From assembly GCA_026003755.1 (NCBI GenBank), contig BPHV01000001.1, forward strand, positions 1 through 64,000: 64,000 bases of DNA, in the 5' to 3' direction. The translations under genes were made by a program, and so were the position numbers. This document shows positions 54,220 through 62,369 of the stretch, in pieces. Position 1 is the stretch's first letter; every line of letters starts with the position of its first letter. Under the pieces are notes generated by a model. It was not told the origin of the DNA, did no database searches, and saw only the letters and a list, made by a program, of their open reading frames with translations. Source of the DNA: Candidatus Roseilinea sp. (lineage in GTDB: Bacteria > Chloroflexota > Anaerolineae > J036 > Brachytrichaceae).

Positions 54220-54357
54220 GGGAACGACGTCGTCGGCGTCGCCGGATTGGCGCGCGCTGACAGGCGGTAAGTGTAACCGACTCGGCTTGACGGGGGCGCT
54301 TGTGCAACCTTGCAGGCTGATTGACTTTTAGCATCGCTTATGCGATATGTTCGCGCT

Positions 54358-55075
54358 ATGAATCTACGCGACAAAATCGTTGTCATTGTTGGCGGCGCGA
54401 CGGGCATCGGCAAAGCGACGGTCGAGATTTGCGCGAGGGCCGGCGCAGCCGTGATCGTCGCCGACCTCAACGAAGTGGAGGGGCATGCCACGGCATCTGC
54501 CGTCGGTGGCGCTTTCTTTCCCATCAATGTAGCTGATGAATCTTCGGTCGCTGCCGCCTTCACCGACATCGCCGCGCAGTATGGACGCCTGGACGCGCTG
54601 ATCCAGACCGCCGGCATCTTGCGCGGCGCATTCGTGCCGCTCGAAGAGTTCGACCTCGCCACTTTCGAGTCGGTTGTGGATGTGAACCTGATCGGCAGCT
54701 TTTTGTGCGCCAAACACGCCGTCCCGCTGCTCAAGAAGGCGGGCAGGGGGCGTGATTGTGCTGGTGTCGTCTGGCGCGGCGATCGGTGGCAGCTCTTCGT
54801 ACGCCTACGGCGCCAGCAAAGGGGGCGTGAACGCGCTGGGCATCACGCTGGCCAACAAGTTAGCCGCTGACAACATCCGCGTCAACGTCGTGATGCCGGG
54901 CAACATTGACACGGCGATGAAGCGGTCGGTGATCGCCGCCGAGCGAGAGCGACTGGGTGGGGGTGGGGAGCAGCAACAGCTCAACCTGGGCGAACCGGCC
55001 GGCGTCGGGCGCATCCTGGCTTGGTTGGTCAGCGACGACGCGGACTACGTGCGCGGCATGATCCAGACGCGCTAG
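54358..55075 (+). CDS. SDR-family dehydrogenase with a single frame break
   Basis: The protein is about 238 residues if the GGGGG at 54746-54750 is read as GGGG. The first part has VVIVGGATGIGKATVEICAR and VDVNLIGSFLCAKHA. The second has VIVLVSSGAAIGG, the catalytic YGASKGGVNAL and VNVVMPGNIDTAMKRS. It resembles 3-oxoacyl-ACP or sugar dehydrogenases. The ATG follows TATGTT by 6 nt (leaderless-like). It precedes, by 8 bp, a sugar-isomerase-like gene, which suggests a catabolic pair. As written the sequence is truncated at ~54870. Confidence 0.75.
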
Positions 55076-56058: not shown

Positions 56059-56571
56059 ATGACAAGGGAAACTTCACGCAGACGGTTCCTCACGCTTATG
56101 GGAATGAGCCTCGTGGTCGGTTGGTCGCTGGCTGCATGCAGCGGTGATTCGGGGCAGTCGGCCCAGCCTACCGCGCCGCCGCCCGGTTCGGGAGGCGAAG
56201 TCTCGATTACGCTGGCATCGAAAGGCAGCACGCCGTTCTACGATCGGGACCGCCTAGAGGTCAAGGCCGGCGCGCGCGTCACGCTTACGTTCAAGAACGC
56301 CGCCGATCCTGGCTCGAGTCGGATGTTCAACTGGGTGCTGGTGAAGCCAAACGCCAAGCTCCGCGTGGTGAGCGATGGCCAGTCGGAGGGTTCGCCCGAG
56401 ACGAGCTACGTCAAGCCGAACGATCCGAATGTTATCGCGCATACGCGCTTGGTGGCCGCCGGCGAGAGCGACACGATCACGTTCGACGCGCCGCCGCCGG
56501 GCGAGTATCCCTTTATCTGCACCTTTCCAGGCTACTACAACACGATGAATGGCGTGCTGGTGGTGCGGTAG
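56059..56571 (+). CDS. Cupredoxin-like lipoprotein lacking both copper His ligands
   Basis: The protein is 170 residues. A twin-Arg/lipobox leader (RRRFLTLMGMSL, then LAAC) predicts export and lipid anchoring. The rest has the auracyanin/azurin fold with MFNWVLVK and GEYPFICTFPGYYNTMNG. In copper-binding relatives these read HNWVLV and CTFPGHYxxGM, so the two His ligands are replaced by Phe and Tyr while Cys and Met remain. It may bind no copper or another metal, or serve as a structural or ligand-binding protein. A convergent oligopeptide transporter operon follows. Confidence 0.75.
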   Translation: MTRETSRRRFLTLMGMSLVVGWSLAACSGDSGQSAQPTAPPPGSGGEVSITLASKGSTPFYDRDRLEVKAGARVTLTFKNAADPGSSRMFNWVLVKPNAKLRVVSDGQSEGSPETSYVKPNDPNVIAHTRLVAAGESDTITFDAPPPGEYPFICTFPGYYNTMNGVLVVR

Positions 56572-56666
56572 GCAACGGCCTGAAGTATCCCAAGCCGGCG
56601 CGCGGATGGATGAGGGCAGGGCAGCGCCCGTGCCCATCTGCTTGCGGAGTCTGCGTCGCGCCCGCG

Positions 56667-57614
56667 CTATAGCCGTGCGCGGTCGGATGATGGATCGAGC
56701 GCGTCGCGTAGACCGTCGCCGAGGAAGGAGAATCCCATCACCAACAGCGCCAGGGCGAGGGTGGGGATGACGCCGACGTAGAGATAGTTCGGGCTGGAGA
56801 GGTAGCGGCCGATCGCGCCGACCATTTTGCCCCAGCTCGGCAATGGATCGTTGATGCCGTAGCCCAGGAAGCTCAAGCCGGCTTCGGCGCCGATGAAGCC
56901 GGGAATGGCGAAGCTGATCGCCACGATGAGCGGGTTGATGATGTTGGGCAGCAAGTGCCGCACTAAGATGAAAGGCGTCGTTGCGCCCAGGCTGCGCGCT
57001 GCGCTCACGAAGTCGCGCTCTTTGTAGGTTAGCACTTGTGCACGCACCAGGCGTGCTAGCCCCGGCCAGCCGAGTATCGAGATGGCAATCGTGACTTGTA
57101 AGATGCCGTTGCCAATCAGCAGCATCAGGAGGATTTGAAAGAGCAAGCCCGGCAGCGCGCCAATCACTTCGAACACGCGGTTGAGCAGGTAATCCCATGC
57201 GCCGCCGAAGTAGCCTGAGAGGAATCCGAAGAGCAGAGCGAGCGCTACGACAATGGCGGTCGCAGCGAGCGAAACAACCAGGCTGACGCGCGCCCCCCAG
57301 ATCAGGCGGCTGAGCAGATCGCGCCCAAGTTCGTCGGTGCCCAGCACATGTGCCGGGTCACGGCCAGGTGGCAGCCACGTCTTGAACAAGTTGGTCTTGT
57401 CGTAGGGAAAGGGCGAGATGACCGGCGCGAGCACACCGGTGGCGATGAATATCAGCACGATGAACAAGCCGATGATGGCCAGTCGGTTGCGTTGGAATCG
57501 CCGCCAGGCCAACTGCGTCGGCGAAAGCGGCTTGTAAGTCATCGTCGTCGTGCCTCGTGTGGTGGCCGCGTGGGCGGAGGTCGCGCCTTGCACCGTGGGG
57601 TTCTGCGTCGCCAT
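56667..57614 (-). CDS. Oligopeptide/dipeptide ABC permease, DppC/OppC type
   Basis: The protein is 315 residues. A cytosolic N-terminal tail and LAWRRFQRNRLAIIGLFIVL precede the OppC-type N-terminal helix, then FLGTDELGRDLLSRLIWGAR, the EAA loop (AARSLGATTPFILVRHLLPN) and IGAEAGLSFLGYGI. It forms a heterodimer with the adjacent DppB-type permease, whose stop is 3 bp upstream of this ATG. GGAGGAGG precedes the start. No ATPase genes of the system are in the window. Confidence 0.9.
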   Translation of the reverse strand: MATQNPTVQGATSAHAATTRGTTTMTYKPLSPTQLAWRRFQRNRLAIIGLFIVLIFIATGVLAPVISPFPYDKTNLFKTWLPPGRDPAHVLGTDELGRDLLSRLIWGARVSLVVSLAATAIVVALALLFGFLSGYFGGAWDYLLNRVFEVIGALPGLLFQILLMLLIGNGILQVTIAISILGWPGLARLVRAQVLTYKERDFVSAARSLGATTPFILVRHLLPNIINPLIVAISFAIPGFIGAEAGLSFLGYGINDPLPSWGKMVGAIGRYLSSPNYLYVGVIPTLALALLVMGFSFLGDGLRDALDPSSDRARL

Positions 57615-57617
57615 CGG

Positions 57618-58562
57618 TCAGTGCCCTCCTCCTAATCGGACGCGCGGATCGATCAGCGTGTAGGCAATGTCGATCAATAAGTTGCTGATCGTCAAAATCG
57701 TTGCCGTGATGATGACTGTGAAGATGATGACGGGGTAGTCACGGGTGTAGATGCTCTCCAGGAAGAAACGCCCGATGCCGGGGATGGCGAAGGTGATCTC
57801 GACGAACGTCGAGCCGGTGATCGCGTTGGCCAGCACCGGGCCGAAGATGGTGACCAGCGGGATGAGCATGTTGCGCATGGCGTGCTTCATGATGACGACG
57901 GAGTAGCGCAGCCCTTTAGCGCGTGCGGTGCGGATGTAGTCATGGCCGAGCACGTCCAGCATGCCGGAGCGCGTGTAGCGCGTGAGCGAACCGACCGTGC
58001 CCAGGCCGAAGATAAACGCCGGCAACACCCACGCATTGGGGGGCTGTTGATACAGCGGCTGGCCGTTGTTGAAGCCGAACCACTTCAGCCCGATGACGAA
58101 GACGGCGATGCCGAAGAAGATCAACGAGATGATCGGTATGGTAACGGTGGCCAGCGCAAGCGTGGTGATGACTTGATCCACGATGGTGTTGCGTTTGAGC
58201 GCGGCGATCACGCCGAGCACGACGCCGAGCGGAAAGCTCCATGCCACCGACAGAAAGCCCAACATCAAGCTCGACCCCCAATACTTGGAGAACAGGTCAA
58301 TCACCCGCGTGTTGGGGTAGTAATAGGACATGCCAAAGTCGCCCTGCACCGCCTTGGTGAGCCAATTCCACCAGTTCACGTAGAACGGTTGGTCTAACCC
58401 GTACTTGCGCATCATGTTGGCTTTGGCTTCAGGCGATAGCGGCTGATTGAGTTCGTCAAAGGGGCCGCCGGGCGTGTTGTACATTAAAAAAAACGTCAAG
58501 AACGAGACGGTGAGCAGCACGAAAATCAGCCCGGCCAAACGGCCTAAGATATATCTCGCCAT
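57618..58562 (-). CDS. Oligopeptide/dipeptide ABC permease, DppB/OppB type
   Basis: The protein is 314 residues from ATG 58562. It has the OppB N-terminal helix (RYILGRLAGLIFVLLTVSFL), a long periplasmic-side loop (NTPGGPFDELNQPLSPEAKA), and the EAA loop (RTARAKGLRYSVVIMKHAMR). No Shine-Dalgarno is visible; a 17-bp-arm hairpin lies nine bases before the ATG, between this gene and the binding-protein gene, and could limit permease expression. It works with the DppC-type partner. Confidence 0.9.
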   Translation of the reverse strand: MARYILGRLAGLIFVLLTVSFLTFFLMYNTPGGPFDELNQPLSPEAKANMMRKYGLDQPFYVNWWNWLTKAVQGDFGMSYYYPNTRVIDLFSKYWGSSLMLGFLSVAWSFPLGVVLGVIAALKRNTIVDQVITTLALATVTIPIISLIFFGIAVFVIGLKWFGFNNGQPLYQQPPNAWVLPAFIFGLGTVGSLTRYTRSGMLDVLGHDYIRTARAKGLRYSVVIMKHAMRNMLIPLVTIFGPVLANAITGSTFVEITFAIPGIGRFFLESIYTRDYPVIIFTVIITATILTISNLLIDIAYTLIDPRVRLGGGH

Positions 58563-58571
58563 ACGATACGA

Positions 58572-58610
58572 ATCAGAACCTAAGGTCCTCAACGGACCTT
58601 AGGTTCTGAT
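58572..58610 (-). terminator. Intercistronic hairpin between binding protein and permease genes
   Basis: The perfect 17-bp arms ATCAGAACCTAAGGTCC and GGACCTTAGGTTCTGAT enclose a 5-nt loop. There is no T tract downstream, so it could be an attenuator or mRNA-stabilising element favouring the binding protein over the permease genes. Confidence 0.55.
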
Positions 58611-58635
58611 GCTTGGTGTTTGGTGCGACTGAGGC

Positions 58636-60519
58636 TTACGGGATGCTCTTGCGATACTCGAGGACGTTGTTGGCGATGTAGATCTCCGAGGCGCTGCTGT
58701 TCATCGCGCCTACGTTCGGCCAGGCGACGCCGCGGTTGATGTTGATCTTGCCGGGTTCCATCGGCGCGCCCTTGATGTAGGGCTTCCACAGGTTCACCGG
58801 CGTGCGATGGATGCAGAAGATAAAGGCGCATTCCTCGACCATCAACTTCTCGGCCTGCTGGTAGAGCTTGGTGCGCTCCTCGATGTCGGTCATCGGGCCG
58901 GCCTTGGCCAGCAGGTCCTGGTATTCCTTGTTGTTCCAGGTGTGGCGGCCGCCCAGGTCGCTGCCCTTCATCACCGTCAGCATGTTCGATGGGTCAAGGT
59001 AGTCCATGCCGTAGGAGATGTAGCCGAAGTCAATCGTCGTATCGGGCTTGCCATCCGGCGTGCGCTTGAGCAGGTCGGCCATGTAGTCCTTCTGCGGCAC
59101 GGACTTGACTTCAACCTCGATGCCGAGGTTCTGCTTGATCGAGTCGGCGTAGGCTTGGGCGATCTCTTTGCCGAAGTAGCCCTCCATGTCGCCGCGCATC
59201 TGCAGCAGCAGTTTGTCCACCTTGACGCCGGATTCCGCATAGAGCTGCTTGGCCAATTCGGGATCGTAGCGTTGGATTTCCTTCAGCGCTTCGCCGTTAG
59301 CGGCGGGGAAGCCGGGCGCCAGGAACGAGTAGGCCGGGCGGGCCAGCAGCGGCTTGGTGATGAACTTGACGATGCTATCGCGGTCCAACAGGTGCGAAAG
59401 CGCCTGGCGGAACTTCAGGTTGTCGAACGGCGGCTTGGTGACGTCGAAGAAGAAGTAGTCGGTGCGGAAGTCGCCCACGTCCGGCGTGGCCTGAGCGCTC
59501 AACTGCGGATCGTTCAACACCGCATCCACCTGTGCCGCGTTGCTGATGGGCGTGTAGTCCAACTGGTTGGCCTGATACGCCTGGAAAGCATCGGGGAACG
59601 GCACGGCGATCATGCGCTCGAGGAAGGGCTTGATGTCGTCGGCCGCCTTCGGGTTGGCGACGATTTCGATGCGGGTCGGGCTAAACTCTTTGACGATGAA
59701 CGGACCGCATGAGACGGAGGTGGCCGGGTTGGAGTTGTATCCCGGGCCGTGGGCGGCCAGCGCCTTGGCCTGCAACGGCATGGCGAACAGGAATAGGCGC
59801 GGCAGATATGGGGTGACTTCGCTGGTCTCGATGATCAGCTCGTAGTCATTAGCGCCTTTGCGCACGCCCAGCTCTTCAACGGGCAACGTGCCGGCGACGA
59901 CTTCATCAAAGTTCTTGATGTTGCCGGAGCCTTTGCTATAGTACCAAGTAAAGTCGTAACCGCTCTTCGGATTGGCCATGTAGCGGAAGGTGGCCACGAA
60001 ATCGTCGGCGGTCAGCGGCGTGTCGTCGCTCCAAACAATGTCGTCCCGCAGGGTGAACGTCCAGGTCAGGCCGTCTTCGGACACCTTCCATTCCTTTGCC
60101 GCGCCGGGTACCAGCTCAAAATCCTTGTTAATGCGCGTGAGCGGCACGCCATACATGTCGGACAGCGGGGCGCGGTTGTAAACGCTTGCGCTGATGTCCA
60201 TAAACTGGCCGGGACTACCGCTGCCGGCGGTGACGTATACCTGCAGCTCTGGCGGCGCAGCATCTTCTGGCAGCACCTTGCCCACGCTATTCTTCATCGG
60301 GCCAGCCGGCGCAGCGGGTGCCTCGGTCGGCTTTGGCGCCTCGGTAGGCTTGGGGGCGGCCGGCGCTTCGGTAGCGGCCGGCGCCGCGGGCGCTTCGGTA
60401 GCTGCGGGGGCAGCAGGAGTGGCCGGCGCGCACGCAGCCAAGAGCGCGCCGCCTGCACCGATGCTCAGCAATTTCAGCATCTGACGGCGACTGAGAGTCG
60501 TTTCTGGTTTATGTGTCAT
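58636..60519 (-). CDS. Extracellular solute-binding protein family 5 (oligopeptide type)
   Basis: The 627-residue lipoprotein has a leader RRQMLKLLSIGAGGALLAAC with lipobox, then a long Pro/Ala/Glu/Thr linker (residues ~30-75). The SBP_bac_5 core follows, with RINKDFELVPGAAKEWKVSE, FTLRDDIVWSDDTPLTADDF, RQALSHLLDRDSIV and KININ near the end. It captures peptides or similar ligands for the DppB/C permeases encoded downstream on the same strand. GGAGGAACAAC precedes the ATG. The upstream ~180 bp to 60723 shows no gene. Confidence 0.9.
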   Translation of the reverse strand: MTHKPETTLSRRQMLKLLSIGAGGALLAACAPATPAAPAATEAPAAPAATEAPAAPKPTEAPKPTEAPAAPAGPMKNSVGKVLPEDAAPPELQVYVTAGSGSPGQFMDISASVYNRAPLSDMYGVPLTRINKDFELVPGAAKEWKVSEDGLTWTFTLRDDIVWSDDTPLTADDFVATFRYMANPKSGYDFTWYYSKGSGNIKNFDEVVAGTLPVEELGVRKGANDYELIIETSEVTPYLPRLFLFAMPLQAKALAAHGPGYNSNPATSVSCGPFIVKEFSPTRIEIVANPKAADDIKPFLERMIAVPFPDAFQAYQANQLDYTPISNAAQVDAVLNDPQLSAQATPDVGDFRTDYFFFDVTKPPFDNLKFRQALSHLLDRDSIVKFITKPLLARPAYSFLAPGFPAANGEALKEIQRYDPELAKQLYAESGVKVDKLLLQMRGDMEGYFGKEIAQAYADSIKQNLGIEVEVKSVPQKDYMADLLKRTPDGKPDTTIDFGYISYGMDYLDPSNMLTVMKGSDLGGRHTWNNKEYQDLLAKAGPMTDIEERTKLYQQAEKLMVEECAFIFCIHRTPVNLWKPYIKGAPMEPGKININRGVAWPNVGAMNSSASEIYIANNVLEYRKSIP

Positions 60520-60722
60520 CTCGTTGTTCCTCCGTAAATGATTTGATGTGAGTATTGAGGGCGATGGCCGATTGCTTTATTTACGGACGATCACCTCCTC
60601 TGAGCGGGCAATTCTAGGCGGAACCCCCCCATTACGCAAACCGAGCAGCTCCTAGGCATCGTGATTTCGACCTTGGAGGATTAAACGCCAAAGCCGGCTT
60701 TAGCGTTGGCGCGACAGCAGGG

Positions 60723-62369
60723 TTATCTGCCAAAACGGAACGATTGCATCACGGCCTCGACTTCGCCATCGAGAGATGCTTGGCTTCGCTGGGCCAGCCG
60801 TGTGTATATGCCAACGACCACGCGCTTTTGTTCAGGGAAGACGTAGAAGACCTGTTGTATCTGCTGCCCGTCATCTGTGCTTGTGGTGGTGAAGCGCACG
60901 TATGTCAGGCCGTCATCGGTCTTGCGCTCTTGCGGTTCCGAGCTGATGCGATGGCCGCTGCTGCGCAGTTGGCGCGTCAGCGAGCTGACGTAGTCCGATA
61001 GTTTGCCGGGCATTGCTTCCTCGAGAAAGAGGATATTCGGAGCAAAGTTCTGTGACACAGGGCCGATCAGGACGCTGAATTCGGTGTCTGAAACATTCAG
61101 TTCTTGGGGGGACTTCAAACGCCATTCTGGCGGCAGGTTGTAGGAGAAGTTGCCGAGTGGCTCGTAGTGCCGTCCATCTTCTAACGTCTCTGCCTCATCA
61201 TCGGTTGCCGGCCCAGCCTCTGCGAGGCCCAGCGTGTTGATCATCGCTTCGATTTGCTCGTCGCTGTCTGGCGAGCTGCCGCGTGGCCGCGCATAGAGCG
61301 CTGCAATCTTGCGTCCCTCAATATCAACGATGTAAGCGGTAATTTGCGCGCGCTGGTTATCAACCGTGCCTTCCATGACGAACTGAGCGGCGTCGTAGCC
61401 CGTATCGGTGGTGAACAGCGAATCCCGAATGAGGCGGGCGCCCCGCGCGTCGCCATAGAATTCCCGCAGTCGGTTCGGCAGCAGGGAGCGATACTTGCGC
61501 CTAAATGCCTGATCAATAGGCGCAGGATCGTCCAGCGTAAAGAAGGCGACCGTTGGTTTAAAGCTGCCTTCTTCTCCCGTGTTAACGAGGGACTTGAATT
61601 CTGCGTTAGGGATGTCTTCCAGCTCCCAGCCTTCTGGGATGACATACGAGAACCCACCATCCGGCTCACTGTGTCGCGAGGGCTGGCTTTGTTCCTCCTC
61701 AACTTCAAGGAGCTCGATAGTCTTGACAAAGTTGTCTACGTCCCTATCGTATCGCTGTTGACTGTTCTGCAGGCGGGTGTAAGTGACGATAAGCCAACGC
61801 GGCCCCAGCGCAACGATGTAAAAGACTTGGCGCAACCGCCGCCCTTGGAGCGTCGAATTGGCAGTTAGCTTGACCACATCGCTGTCCTGGTCGGTGGCCA
61901 GCCTTTCCTCCTTGAGCAACGCGAATCCTGAGATTGTGCTTTTCAGCTCTTCAATTGCAAGTTCGACGTAAGTCTCCAAGTCAACCTCAGACTCGTCTAT
62001 GATGAAATTCACGTTAGGGGTAAAGCCGCTCCCATCGGAAGGGGCAAACAGCACTTTGAAGGATGACATTGAGACTTCCGCGGTTCGCCAGCCGGCGGGT
62101 GGGATATAGGCAAATCCCCCATCGCGCTCCTCGACGCGCTTGCCCGCCGTCGTGACCGGTGCCTTTGTCGGGGTCGGTGTGGGGGATGGGGTGGGGCGTG
62201 GTGTTGGGCGGATGGACTGCGACGGGTCTGGGCTTTCGATCACTGCAGCGGGCGGTATTTGGTAGCGGGGCCGATCAATGGCTGAGGTTGCGCCGAAGCT
62301 CTGGCCGGCGATGGCCAGGGCCGATATGCTCACTATGGCGTAACGCAAGAGGGTTCTAAGCTGGGTCAT
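60723..62369 (-). CDS. Secreted protein with three PsbP/DUF1795-like domains
   Basis: The protein is 548 residues. The signal peptide (RYAIVSISALAIAGQSFG) is followed by a Pro/Thr linker. Three repeats of one fold follow, each opening DGGFAYIPPAGW, DGGFSYVIPEGW or LGNFSYNLPPEW and containing LQGRRLRQVFYIVALGPRWL-like strands. This is the PsbP/Mog1/DUF1795 fold, often found in lipoproteins of unclear role. The three units at ~85-225, ~235-385 and ~405-548 have diverged. It lies alone between the transporter and nadE. Confidence 0.75.
   Translation of the reverse strand: MTQLRTLLRYAIVSISALAIAGQSFGATSAIDRPRYQIPPAAVIESPDPSQSIRPTPRPTPSPTPTPTKAPVTTAGKRVEERDGGFAYIPPAGWRTAEVSMSSFKVLFAPSDGSGFTPNVNFIIDESEVDLETYVELAIEELKSTISGFALLKEERLATDQDSDVVKLTANSTLQGRRLRQVFYIVALGPRWLIVTYTRLQNSQQRYDRDVDNFVKTIELLEVEEEQSQPSRHSEPDGGFSYVIPEGWELEDIPNAEFKSLVNTGEEGSFKPTVAFFTLDDPAPIDQAFRRKYRSLLPNRLREFYGDARGARLIRDSLFTTDTGYDAAQFVMEGTVDNQRAQITAYIVDIEGRKIAALYARPRGSSPDSDEQIEAMINTLGLAEAGPATDDEAETLEDGRHYEPLGNFSYNLPPEWRLKSPQELNVSDTEFSVLIGPVSQNFAPNILFLEEAMPGKLSDYVSSLTRQLRSSGHRISSEPQERKTDDGLTYVRFTTTSTDDGQQIQQVFYVFPEQKRVVVGIYTRLAQRSQASLDGEVEAVMQSFRFGR

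Follow-up and report, generated by a model that had tools for sequence, protein, structure and literature searches.

Auracyanins are surface-anchored proteins, and they and the azurins provide the closest described systems for the protein analysed here. Auracyanin A of Chloroflexus aurantiacus (2aan) is a small surface-anchored domain whose cupredoxin fold corresponds to residues 46-170 of our protein. However, auracyanin A has two histidines, a cysteine and a methionine, and our protein, referred to below as the His-less protein, has neither histidine. Azurins (TIGR02695) have the ligand-loop architecture CTFPGxxxxM and an N-W-V-L strand in common with it. Opp/Dpp/Nik-type ABC importers with a family-5 solute-binding protein are represented by the operon next to the gene, which encodes an SBP_bac_5 protein and DppB- and DppC-like permeases; we know of no cupredoxin-fold accessory for importers of this type. 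In plants, the early nodulin-like proteins (ENODL phytocyanins) belong to the cupredoxin family, are unable to bind copper and have been kept for other roles (PMC4499708). The likeness to the His-less protein is that of a probably copper-less cupredoxin family member, but ENODL proteins are a plant family with another domain make-up, a separate loss and no operon context. Because this parallel exists, the His-less protein is not a new category; our literature searches found no specific account of bacterial cupredoxins that lack copper ligands.

The window, which is the whole stretch of DNA analysed (64,000 nucleotides), comes from Candidatus Roseilinea sp., which belongs to a group of hot-spring phototrophs, and the family Roseilineaceae has been proposed for Roseilinea (PMC8446752). 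These organisms have been reported to possess a bc complex III but to lack alternative complex III (PMC8446752), and they would differ from the usual setting of auracyanin, which typically accepts electrons from alternative complex III (PMC5826079). The gene and its N-terminal signal are located as follows.

56059 to 56571, forward strand: His-less auracyanin/azurin-like lipoprotein gene, 170 amino acids, identified from its open reading frame, its PF00127 match and the fold match of its model
56074 to 56139, forward strand: putative Tat-type signal (SRRRF) and lipobox (LAAC, Cys27), with R7, R8 and C27 invariant in the His-less clade

The frame begins with an ATG at 56059, with GAGG about 10 bases upstream, and its stop codon ends at 56571. 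SRRRF and LAAC are presumably a Tat lipoprotein signal. The protein passes the Pfam search for PF00127 (Copper-bind; 37.6 bits, gathering cut-off 21.2), and its top PDB sequence match is auracyanin A. It fails the azurin equivalog TIGR02695 (62.5 bits, cut-off 105.1), as does the histidine-bearing paralogue (97.1 bits). This paralogue (locus L001) is the other of exactly two PF00127 matches in the window genome, and it has all four ligands in the motifs HNWVLV and CTFPGHATLM. The corresponding positions of the His-less protein are these.

56326 to 56328, forward strand: Phe90 (TTC), at the position of the azurin ligand His46 in the alignments
56518 to 56547, forward strand: CTFPGYYNTM, the metal-loop equivalent, with Cys154 and Met163 kept and Tyr159 in place of His117

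Alignment to azurin pairs F90 with His46, C154 with Cys112, Y159 with His117 and M163 with Met121, and the His-Cys-His-Met ligand set of type-1 copper proteins is therefore incomplete. The original prediction, that HNWVLV had become FNWVLV and CTFPGH had become CTFPGY with only Cys and Met left, is confirmed by these alignments. The homologues that it proposed to collect also exist: other species of the genus contribute six more full-length orthologues, 76-93% identical, in which F, C, Y and M recur, so that these residues are common to 7/7 full-length genus members. Chance or a sequencing error can be dismissed because these seven agree and because the Tyr159 codon varies synonymously among them (TAC/TAT). 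Going by what we know of azurin ligands, we take it as likely that no type-1 copper is held.

The change extends beyond the genus. The 14 full-length His-less proteins, which come from four genera (g1, the genus of the window, and g4, g7 and g8), form one clade with support of 98/90 in the first tree, and the same clade is recovered at 98/89 from an alignment without the signal region and the four ligand columns. The clade nests among H-C-H-M paralogues, many of them from the same genomes, which indicates common ancestry with members that carry the copper ligands. Within it the His46 position is occupied by F (12) or Y (2) and the His117 position by Y (12), F (1) or M (1). Among the best 80 loci of the scan, about 70 inspected relatives in other families or phyla are all H-C-H-M where the site is complete; therefore the ligand change looks restricted to this family. 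It had been considered that the histidine of IAHTRL might take over a ligand position. This residue is not a substitute ligand, since it corresponds to azurin His83, which is not a ligand, it is also present in relatives that bear the copper ligands, and other His-less members have Tyr, Asn, Ser or Ala there. Genus g2 (L025, L045 and L049) has an auracyanin-like group of its own in which the ligands were altered separately, with Q at the His46 position, S or C at the Cys112 position, then H and M, in the motif [S/C]TAPRH.

The positions conserved mainly in the His-less clade lie partly in a helix and partly at the old metal loop. The helix motif is unlike that of the histidine-bearing paralogues.

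56359 to 56382, forward strand: clade-specific helix motif LRVVSDGQ, residues 101-108

Here L101, R102, V104 and Q108 are conserved; Y160 and N164 are clade-specific in or adjoining the metal loop, and T77, D138 and E149 are also conserved mainly in this clade. Structure prediction, which had been suggested as a check, gave an auracyanin/azurin fold. The model has a block-mean pLDDT of at least 94 from residue 51 on (about 94-98 in the domain) and the predicted beta-sandwich is of the auracyanin-type cupredoxin kind. Its best match is auracyanin A (2aan), with Z 21, 121 aligned residues, an rmsd of 1.1 and 39% identity, a match that is expected and silent on metal because the input alignment of the predictor included histidine-bearing paralogues. 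The His-less genes have a median dN/dS of 0.066 (0.03-0.10) in the genus and 0.068 in g8, and the histidine-bearing paralogue has one of 0.071. The His-less protein is thus under the same constraint as that paralogue, and its ligands were lost while the predicted fold was retained under strong selection.

The His-less gene is arranged tail-to-tail with an importer operon on the opposite strand.

56667 to 57614, reverse strand: DppC/OppC-type permease, the convergent neighbour, conserved in all testable genomes
57618 to 58592, reverse strand: DppB/OppB-type permease, conserved in the neighbour operon
58636 to 60519, reverse strand: family-5 solute-binding lipoprotein (SBP_bac_5), OppA/MppA-like, conserved in the neighbour operon

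This arrangement was found in 13/13 testable genomes from four genera, testable meaning that the assembly shows the downstream side of the gene: seven of g1 (window included), G015 and G024 of g8, G014, G019 and G026 of g7, and G011 of g4. The G024 contig carries DppC only in part. Other neighbours of the gene are not maintained beyond the genus, and the copper-type paralogue has other surroundings: in several genera it lies next to a PBP-like protein and an M28 peptidase. The contigs of G020 and G023 stop at the His-less gene, and an importer orthologue was not found elsewhere in either genome. G008 has neither the gene nor the operon. In G006 a 4.2-kb deletion (L181 15740-15848), equivalent to window 56516-60692, takes the operon together with the last codons of the His-less gene; this joint loss was set aside as proof of dependence because the single deletion removes both and counts as one event. 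A consensus scan of the intergenic region gave no terminator shared by the convergent genes, and no ATPase gene for the importer was seen beside the operon within the window.

From these observations we infer that the gene arose by duplication of the copper auracyanin/azurin gene of this family, that both copper histidines were lost in one ancestor, and that the product was thereafter kept as a metal-free, membrane-anchored surface lipoprotein. The aromatic residues at both histidine positions would fill the old copper pocket, which is probably plugged by them, and no type-1 copper would then be bound and no electron carried. More tentatively, the face with the metal loop, now remodelled, and the helix motif (LRVVSDGQ, YYNTMN) may let the domain bind a ligand or another protein, and its most likely role would be that of an accessory to the SBP-DppB-DppC importer on the cell surface. 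A metal-free type-1 site is very probable. The explanation as a whole, a re-used metal-free surface lipoprotein that is perhaps an importer accessory, is the one we favour with some reserve. The link to the importer has the conserved neighbourhood as its one support and is tentative, and the stricter version, a one-time conversion of a bacterial blue-copper protein to a metal-free cupredoxin-fold lipoprotein that serves a peptide-type ABC importer as its dedicated accessory or co-receptor, is somewhat more doubtful again. The strong selection on a gene beside a peptide-transporter operon also bears on function; therefore the His-less copy probably has a function for which copper is not required.

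Several other explanations were weighed against the metal-free domain. In one, Cys154 and Met163, perhaps with Tyr159, would hold Cu(I), haem or another group in a non-canonical site. Solved structures exist for azurins whose ligands were altered or whose metal was exchanged, for example iron azurin (4hz1), and Cys and Met are kept throughout the genus and in most g7 members. However, the Cys112 position is Thr in four clade members (G015, G020 and G024 of g8, plus G011) and the Met121 position is Leu in G019, while the aromatics remain, which speaks against a site built from Cys and Met and in favour of a metal-free domain; moreover, the clade columns contain no further clade-specific His, Cys or Met. 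We regard such a site as quite unlikely, and binding elsewhere on the protein is possible. Thus the part of the original prediction that proposed a different metal or cofactor at Cys and Met found no support, and the part that proposed a conserved scaffold with lost ligands and a new function is supported by the single origin, the purifying selection and the parallel retention of the histidine-bearing copy. The idea that the gene is a decaying auracyanin pseudogene could appeal to the two ligand losses, to the truncated copy in G006 and to the absence of the gene from G008, but it is barely credible given intact frames in 14 species of four genera and a dN/dS of about 0.07 where measured (g1, g8), and for the intact copies these selection data refute it.

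The alternative that touches the importer rather than the metal site is an independent surface lipoprotein whose neighbourhood is inherited gene order. Such a protein might occupy the docking partners of auracyanin without carrying electrons, or might bind some other ligand, and the predicted fold still resembles the surface of an electron carrier. The convergent genes are not co-transcribed, and therefore simple vertical inheritance could account for the neighbourhood. In G013 and genus g2 the importer occurs without the His-less gene, and so the gene does not always accompany it. On the other hand, only the importer operon stays beside the gene across four genera, and a decoy for a photosynthetic partner would leave the non-phototrophic members unexplained. 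This independent role is unlikely in our estimate. Photo_RC genes are present in 9/9 genomes of the genus examined, but G019, G026 and G011, relatives in which no Photo_RC genes were detected, carry the His-less gene too; this argues against a role as a photosynthetic carrier, and the gene was rejected as a marker of photosynthesis.

The re-used metal-free lipoprotein would be a single-origin bacterial case in which the fold of an electron-transfer metalloprotein serves without its metal ligands, and the ancestral-type copy is still available for comparison in the same genomes. It would also mean that PF00127 matches are not all copper carriers in this family, which includes phototrophs with an unsettled electron carrier. 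The family name Copper-bind would mislead the annotation of the His-less protein.

Some further observations were made at this locus. The importer proteins of g8 (L043, G015) are 82-91% identical to those of g1 (window 56667-60519), whereas the adjacent His-less proteins are only 43% identical; the comparison suggests that the operon was transferred to a site next to a resident gene, or that rates have been very uneven. The importer operon is adjoined by a gene at 60723-62369 (reverse strand) for a 548-amino acid protein that contains a DcrB-like domain and what look like repeated units; this gene is beside the operon in G002 too and was kept in G006 after the deletion. Finally, the short-chain dehydrogenase gene at 54340-55075 has one extra base near 54746 compared with its G002 orthologue, which splits the 249-amino acid frame in two; either a true frameshift or an error in sequencing may be the cause.
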